Assembly: GCF_000695095.2 (NCBI RefSeq)
Contig: NZ_CP011454.1
Coordinates: 1,488,001 to 1,552,000, forward strand
Direction of reading: 5' to 3'
DNA: 64,000 nucleotides
Source of the DNA: Gemmatimonas phototrophica
Lineage (GTDB): Bacteria > Gemmatimonadota > Gemmatimonadetes > Gemmatimonadales > Gemmatimonadaceae
Shown: in pieces, positions 50,335 through 51,060 of the stretch
How the letters are laid out: each line of letters begins with the position of its first letter
Position numbering within the stretch: the first letter of the stretch is position 1
The notes under the pieces: model-generated
What the model was told of the DNA's origin: nothing
Seen by the model: only the letters and a program-made list of their open reading frames with translations
Databases searched by the model: none
Made by a program: the position numbers and the translations under genes

Positions 50335-50435
50335 GTTCCCCCCCTTGGTGGCGTTGGTGTGAACAGCCCGTCGGTGGCACGGGGGGACGGAGGGCACGGG
50401 TAAACGAGACACAAGTTTCGTAGCGCCGAGCGGTG

Positions 50436-50473
50436 CCTGATCGACGGAGGTGAAGAGCTGTGGAGGTGAGGAG
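50436..50473. repeat. Left inverted repeat of the GxxExxY element
   Basis: 38 nt starting CCTGATCG and containing two GGAGGTG words. It is complementary to 50951-50988 at 31 of 38 positions. Confidence 0.8.
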
Positions 50474-50485
50474 AATCTCGTTGGA

Positions 50486-50884
50486 TTAGGGGACCATGCG
50501 CGCATTGTTGATCCGGTTAATGCCGTCGATCATTCGATCAAGGCCGAAGTTTGCAACCAATCCTACCGGCAGTCGCAAGATCCGCAAATAGGTCAGTAAC
50601 TGACGTGCGTGGATGCGGGCGGATTTCTCTGTTGCCTTGACTTCAATGACGACACGCTGGTCGACCAGGATGTCAATGCGAAAGGCATGCTCCAGTATTC
50701 GCCCGCGGTACGTGAGTGGCAATTCTTTCTGCCTCTCAACTTTGTGCCCACCTCTTTCCAATTCGTCTGCCAGCAGAACTTCGTACACTGATTCAAATAG
50801 CCCGGGCCCCAGATCGCGGTGGATCTGAATACAGGCGTCAACGATGTTCTCGGTAATCTGATCAAGGTGAGAGTCGTCGAACAT
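50486..50884 (-). CDS. GxxExxY family protein, PD-(D/E)XK nuclease-like
   Basis: 132 residues. The eponymous motif is GLFESVY (Gly28, Glu31, Tyr34), preceded by ENIVDACIQIHRDLGP. The nuclease-like core has Asp71 (FRIDILV) and Glu81-x-Lys83 (VVIEVKA), so all predicted catalytic residues of a PD-(D/E)XK enzyme are present, then LLTYLRILRLPVGLVANFG. Family members occur in many copies in some genomes, with no settled role. The gene is flanked 13 bp from its stop and 67 bp from its start by inverted repeats, between pgsA and cinA. Its GC content is visibly lower than its neighbours, suggesting acquisition. Confidence 0.92.
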   Translation of the reverse strand: MFDDSHLDQITENIVDACIQIHRDLGPGLFESVYEVLLADELERGGHKVERQKELPLTYRGRILEHAFRIDILVDQRVVIEVKATEKSARIHARQLLTYLRILRLPVGLVANFGLDRMIDGINRINNARMVP

Positions 50885-50950
50885 CTCACATCTTCGGTAG
50901 ATCGCGTCATCGCATCGTCATCACCGTGCCTCCGGCAAGCTGTTCGTTGT

Positions 50951-50988
50951 CCTCTCACCTCCACACCTCCGCACCTCCTCCGATCAGG
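50951..50988. repeat. Right inverted repeat of the GxxExxY element
   Basis: Reverse complement reads CCTGATCG, then GGAGGTG-type words, matching the left copy at 31 of 38 positions. The internal words are themselves tandem (GGAGGTG three times). Confidence 0.8.
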
Positions 50989-51048
50989 CCCAACGGTCTC
51001 GAAAATCAGCGGAGAATCAGTCAGCAAGCCCCGCACTGGTGCCATCGC

Positions 51049-51054
51049 TAGATT
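51049..51054 (+). promoter_or_regulatory. -10 box 6 nt before ATG (leaderless candidate), cinA
   Basis: TAGATT, a 6-nt spacer (51055-51060), ATG 51061. No Shine-Dalgarno sequence is present. Confidence 0.55.
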
Positions 51055-51060
51055 CCCCGC

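Follow-up and report, generated by a model that had tools for sequence, protein, structure and literature searches.

REPIN/RAYT (TnpA-REP) systems combine dispersed palindromic sequences, arranged as inverted doublets that could form hairpins, with a nuclease-type gene lying by cognate copies and with words that are specific to each genome (PMC3116915). The Gemmatimonas phototrophica locus described here resembles them in all of these respects, but it carries a PD-(D/E)XK nuclease where they carry an HUH Y1 transposase, and tandem 7-9-nt units where they have REP sequences. The intervening sequences of 23S rRNA, in which S23 proteins are encoded between terminal inverted repeats, offer a second likeness, namely a small ORF in a terminal-inverted-repeat loop that occurs sporadically at fixed sites (PMC4990558); unlike these, the present element is intergenic, its ORF is an unrelated nuclease, and its arms are multicopy and periodic. 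Tandem 7-nt intergenic words, often arranged as convergent inverted pairs, are also familiar as cyanobacterial STRR and as intergenic heptameric repeats, of which Xanthomonas campestris has 70 convergent inverted pairs (PMC4692102). Such heptamers are reported as over-represented or abundant yet uncharacterised (PMC4692102, PMC4679880) and, like STRR, are described without an associated gene, whereas in our data the words stand on both sides of a gene, with a length of 7 nt at four-helix-bundle genes and of 8 nt at GxxExxY genes. With MITEs and their parent insertion sequences the present system shares one gene-bearing unit, many gene-less units and common termini; the differences are that no target duplication is recognised here, that the gene is fixed at one site, and that the termini are wholly diverged between orthologous copies. 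Finally, the protein resembles the Cas4/lambda-exonuclease branch of PD-(D/E)XK nucleases, from which come the nearest solved fold and a weak Cas4 profile match, but it is shorter, has other N-terminal helices and lies in no CRISPR context. GxxExxY and four-helix-bundle genes are common and often multi-copy, and we know of no role assigned to either.

The element lies in the intergenic region between pgsA and cinA (50335..51060, no strand) of the window, by which we mean the whole 64,000-nucleotide stretch of G. phototrophica DNA analysed, and this junction was read both here and in congeners. The neighbours are a pgsA-like gene (top match TIGR00560, 1e-28, slightly below the curated cut-off) and cinA (NF001813, above cut-off). 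Between them a single gene, on the minus strand (50486..50884, 132 aa), occupies the loop between two inverted arms. The arm on the 3' side of the gene (50434..50473, plus strand) reads TGCCTGATCGACGGAGGTGAAGAGCTGTGGAGGTGAGGAG and consists of tandem 8-nt units (GTGAAGAG/CTGTGGAG/GTGAGGAG); the second, inverted arm, on the 5' (upstream) side (50954..50989, minus strand), reads GCCTGATCGGAGGAGGTGCGGAGGTGTGGAGGTGAG on the minus strand. Positions 50435-50470 and 50954-50989 show 86% complementarity across 36 nt, and a comparison of the 777-bp junction with itself returns the inverted match at E = 1e-7. The GC content of the element is 54%, against 60-69% in its surroundings. The inverted flanks around one gene, the pgsA/cinA position and the lower GC had all been described in an initial annotation of this DNA, correctly in each case; the GGAGGTG word style it gave to the repeats is indeed present in the arms, as one phase of an 8-nt unit that is repeated about three times per arm. 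An Rfam search of the element matched no known RNA family, and the site is intergenic, outside the 23S rRNA gene.

Profile searches place the 132-aa product in the GxxExxY / PDDEXK_3 nuclease family, with matches to PF13366 at 9e-36 and to TIGR04256 at 1e-36, both above the curated cut-offs (123.2 bits against 22, and 125.7 against 35, respectively). Glu31, Asp71, Glu81, Lys83, Gln95 and Tyr99 are invariant in an alignment with 17 diverse relatives, a set that includes the Asp71 and Glu81-x-Lys83 already singled out by the initial annotation. The AlphaFold2 model of the protein (pLDDT 95) has a restriction-endonuclease-like fold whose closest solved counterpart is SSO0001 (Z 9.2), which we take to be a Cas4 protein, with restriction enzymes and Hjc resolvases ranking lower (Z about 6-7 for the archaeal Hjc resolvases); a sequence search of solved structures found no relative of the GxxExxY protein. 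The best PADLOC matches were weak Cas4 profiles (7.8e-5, across part of the protein). We rejected a CRISPR Cas4 identity because this match is weak and partial and because the neighbours are pgsA-like and cinA, with no CRISPR context at the locus; a defence-system reading because PADLOC gave weak Cas4 similarity at best; and an HUH/Y1 (RAYT) transposase identity because profiles and fold make the product a PD-(D/E)XK protein.

The arms belong to a family dispersed throughout the genome. An arm model (R1), searched against the single contig of 4,716,552 bp at an E of 0.01 or less, finds 55 arms, and for 51 of these an opposite-strand arm lies within 600 bp, compared with 0.5 expected under uniform placement. 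R1 was seeded from the window arm at 50434-50473, so the position of that arm as best-scoring of the 55 is a biased rank and not evidence. The doublets come in two geometries, one with heads outward and loops mostly of 3-60 bp, the other with heads abutting at a spacing mostly of 2-23 bp; many of the heads-abutting arms start TACC, not TGCC. The GxxExxY gene is the loop (480 bp) of one heads-outward doublet, the sole doublet from the 55 arms to hold it; another doublet has a 204-bp loop, and some hold terminator-like hairpins. Most arms, then, occur without a GxxExxY gene, an outcome which the initial annotation had held to speak against its proposed mobile unit. The combination of gene-less sites and inverted pairing points away from an accident and towards doublets that are either miniature derivatives lacking the gene or passengers. 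Arm counts in 25 congeners range between 0 and 7 (seven in G066, four each in G075 and G063, two in G070, none in the others), and comparison with the 55 found here indicates that expansion of the family took place chiefly in this lineage. The same arms, with AAACTGAAATGCAGCAGTGCTCC loops, also make up a 0.6-kb hairpin array with a period of ~101 bp (L023, G000:C1:1076527-1077119).

Three more GxxExxY genes are present in the genome, each beside other palindromic repeats. The termini of the pgsA-cinA element, for which a look at such genes had been proposed as a check, were sought around all three and found at none. Palindromic repeats of CAGTCCTCG/CGAGGACTG stand on both sides of the L004 gene (1337-1410, 1909-1976), palindromic GACAACAGCA/TGCTGTTGTC lies near the L003 gene (1350-1460), and a CACAGAGGACACAGAGG hairpin is found on the 3' side of the L002 gene (1365-1476). 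In 464 kb of the genome taken as a sample, the L004 units turned up at other places; those of L002 and L003 did not.

At pgsA-cinA, a GxxExxY gene in the same orientation is shared by this genome and four congeners (G061, G073, G048 and G070). All five fall into a single clade (95/89), which indicates that the gene is vertically inherited at the site and not freshly inserted. Inverted repeats bracket it in four of the five orthologues, with sequences that differ from genome to genome (GGAGGTGAAGAGCTG here, GAGGCACGGAG-type in G061, GAGGCGCGGAG in G073, GGAGGCGCGGAGCCGCGGAGGCACGGAG in G048), and no arms were seen in the flanks of the gene in G070, the closest orthologue. Several dispersed octamer copies in G048 share a GGAGCCGCGGAGGCAC core with the arms of its gene, so that these arms, too, resemble an amplified word. 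G066 and G075 (L072, L073) have no gene at the junction and hold there a ~215-bp palindrome of AAGAACGCAAGAGCACAGG units, 71-78% complementary; L075-L078 and L087 have short pgsA-cinA spacers alone, and gene-less congener spacers measure 33-70 bp. Elsewhere, gene-less doublets vary in presence or absence among congeners, as at site 1,665,898, where one is found in G066 and not in G075. The comparison of related junctions proposed at the outset has thus supplied pgsA-cinA sites without the gene; a target duplication, sought at this and at the present/absent sites of gene-less doublets, was not recognised, the flanks being too diverged to define one, and no insertion with clean boundaries was seen among the compared congener sites. 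A recently transposed insertion sequence was rejected as the explanation of this copy, since the genes that occupy the site in five congeneric genomes, this one among them, are orthologues. The earlier suggestion of a minimal transposon-like or repeat-maintaining element accordingly survives in part: the layout of termini plus nuclease is recurrent and the arms are multicopy, for which 'repeat-maintaining' is the best description, but recent transposition of the 553-bp unit is not supported, given the orthologues and their clade.

The gene-between-arms layout extends across phyla. A protein-pattern scan, in which loci were picked by protein sequence alone, yielded 80 GxxExxY loci spread over roughly a dozen phyla, and flank tests were made on 74 of them. 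The upstream flank aligned to its own reverse-complemented downstream flank with a median score of 22.5, as opposed to 8.5 for flanks swapped between loci and 8.0 in direct orientation; the own partner ranked first of 74 at 32 loci, and about one third of the 74 fell below the 95% swap threshold. Over-sampling of sphingomonads does not account for this result, which stands when 24 loci of sphingomonads and related Alphaproteobacteria, many of them in similar surroundings, are left out: 32 of the remaining 50 loci score above the 95% level for swapped pairs, and the sum over these loci (1004) is higher than in any of 2000 permutations (maximum 588). By eye and by regular expression, each arm consists of about three octamers in tandem, purine-rich and approximately RYRHRRAG, which read along the coding strand in the upstream arm and in the inverted sense in the downstream arm. 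Strand counts for the octamer expression over the 74 loci are 47 coding and 5 other upstream, 4 coding and 46 other downstream, and matches on both sides in the inverted sense occur at 37/74 GxxExxY loci and at 0/124 neighbour genes. The period is 8 in 45 of 49 periodic GxxExxY flanks. Chance or composition as the cause is ruled out by swapped flanks, neighbour genes, shuffles and the reversed pattern, the last being an imperfect control in that the reversed octamer partly matches the same arrays. In the sphingomonads (L107-L127), the GxxExxY gene has ACGCGGAG-type arms and, in many, a very similar neighbourhood, with flanks that look like fabD/fabG (fatty-acid synthesis); this is probably another vertically kept site.

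Four-helix-bundle genes (TIGR02436, S23/IVP) show the same layout with a different unit length. In the window's phylum and in cyanobacterial plasmids (L181-L210, L261-L271) these genes are bracketed by inverted 7-nt arms, less cleanly in the plasmids, with units that include GGAGTCA, AGGTATC and GAGAGTT. Within the phylum, 23 of 29 such loci lie above the 95% level of swapped flanks, and the period is 7 in 29 of 32 periodic four-helix-bundle flanks. Several of the eleven cyanobacterial plasmid copies have GGAGTCA, GGGAGTA, GGGAACA or GGTGACA units, in inverted pairs that are not always clean, and some are located inside operons (cas6|cas4, cas10|cmr3, or between two ribonucleotide reductase genes). 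An 8-nt repeat brackets a four-helix-bundle gene in G155.

Abundance of the octamers is associated with presence of the GxxExxY gene. The window's phylum was represented by 150 genomes, and five or more octamer triplets were found in 17/48 genomes with GxxExxY and in 0/102 without (p = 4e-10, kinship ignored). The split persists, again ignoring kinship, among genomes with four-helix-bundle genes (15/41 vs 0/40) and among those lacking them (2/7 vs 0/62), as well as within the window's family at a threshold of at least four copies (14/35 vs 0/18). Similar words occur both at the gene and elsewhere in the genome in G023, G036, G048 and G. phototrophica. G026 and G053 have more than 200 octamer-triplet matches each, and in the stretches read their ACGAGAAG-type words do not bracket their own GxxExxY genes; the link at genome level is for this reason not always cognate, and the idea that word and gene are cognate everywhere must be abandoned.

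From these observations we propose a REPIN/RAYT-like system of nuclease plus palindrome, with a PD-(D/E)XK nuclease in RAYT's place, a proposal for which we consider belief and doubt to be about evenly balanced. The GxxExxY gene would encode a small PD-(D/E)XK nuclease whose putative recognition sequence is the inverted arms of tandem 8-nt units; gene-less inverted doublets with short loops, predicted to be able to form hairpins or cruciforms, would make up the population scattered in intergenic DNA. The nuclease may bind the octamer arms as hairpin or duplex and cut at their outer end (TGCC/TTCAC), and such cutting, in the course of replication or repair, could allow doublets to leave a site or to be copied to new places between genes. 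Within this genus, the gene at pgsA-cinA would have kept its ancestral position, where it is passed on vertically or lost, with arm sequence and doublets turning over fast. The data directly show the layout with its orientation rule and its period, the association at genome level, doublets that are present in some congeners and absent from others, and the vertical inheritance of the gene; an action of the protein on the arms, as the force behind their spread, is what we infer. In favour of this proposal are the 55 arms with 51 paired (0.5 expected) against 0-7 in congeners, the orthologues with different arms, the variable gene-less doublets, the matched flanks and period of 8 at GxxExxY loci, the restriction of octamer-rich genomes to those with the gene, and the invariant catalytic residues; counter to it are the failure to find clean-edged insertions or target duplications at the compared sites, the non-cognate words of G026/G053, the arm-less orthologue of G070, the octamers at the four-helix-bundle gene of G155, and the roughly one third of loci under threshold.

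The REPIN/RAYT-like proposal has two main rivals, a cassette mobile as a whole and a palindrome-tolerating repair enzyme. The first would be selfish and would resemble the 23S rRNA intervening sequences, for which movement as a unit has been proposed: gene and arms would insert together into intergenic sites and operons, gene-less doublets would be MITE-like internal deletions, and the protein would serve its own spread. The S23/four-helix-bundle genes, encoded in rRNA IVS elements (PMC4990558), share the layout, copies do lie within operons (cas6|cas4, cas10|cmr3, ribonucleotide reductase genes; cyanobacterial plasmids), and the G. phototrophica gene is the loop of one doublet; but that gene is vertically inherited at one site in the genus, one alone of the doublets from 55 arms holds it, and the examined loci gave no sign of arms and gene arriving together, which leads us to regard the cassette as unlikely. 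In the second, the repeats would precede the nuclease, with slippage and template switching giving rise to palindromes and to purine-rich tandem repeats of 7-9 nt, and the nuclease would be a hairpin- or junction-trimming repair enzyme (SbcCD- or Holliday junction resolvase-like) kept where such DNA is common. The association of gene and genome without cognate arms in G026/G053, and the additional resemblance of the fold to archaeal Hjc resolvases, are consistent with this account, but it leaves unexplained the matched arms that directly bracket the gene, their one orientation and their gene-family-specific period, and we judge it improbable. That the arms are merely gene-expression features (a long mRNA stem, terminators) of an ordinary nuclease, e.g. 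a defence protein, is more doubtful still, and very improbable, since terminator-like hairpins do occur in some doublets but the arms are mostly without the gene and lie upstream as well as downstream of it, and the best PADLOC matches are weak Cas4.

Beyond the REPIN/RAYT-like proposal for this locus, the two gene families may represent a general class of bacterial element, in which small DNA- or RNA-acting proteins (GxxExxY with 8-nt units, four-helix-bundle with 7-nt units) each sustain and propagate a set of inverted tandem-repeat arms of their own; we advance this tentatively, with doubt somewhat outweighing belief. The literature within reach of our search, mostly outside the subscription journals and with preprints outside its scope, includes a paper that names GxxExxY only as the neighbour of a reverse transcriptase and does not deal with repeats; it does not discuss the repeat words and has nothing relevant on four-helix-bundle/S23 proteins with intergenic repeats. 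To the extent of that search (few subscription journals, no preprints), the link of GxxExxY and four-helix-bundle proteins to matched inverted arms of a specific period appears new. It gives a possible owner to widespread unexplained bacterial repeats and, with unit length set by protein family, provides both orphans, protein and repeat, with a testable partner. If true, the general class would explain the orphan repeats of 7-9 nt, such as CACAGAGACACAGAG, CGCAAAGACGCAAAG and GGAGTCAGGAGTCAG, that are widespread in the intergenic DNA of bacteria, and a second, unrelated nuclease fold would join the REPIN/RAYT way of keeping chromosomal repeat populations.
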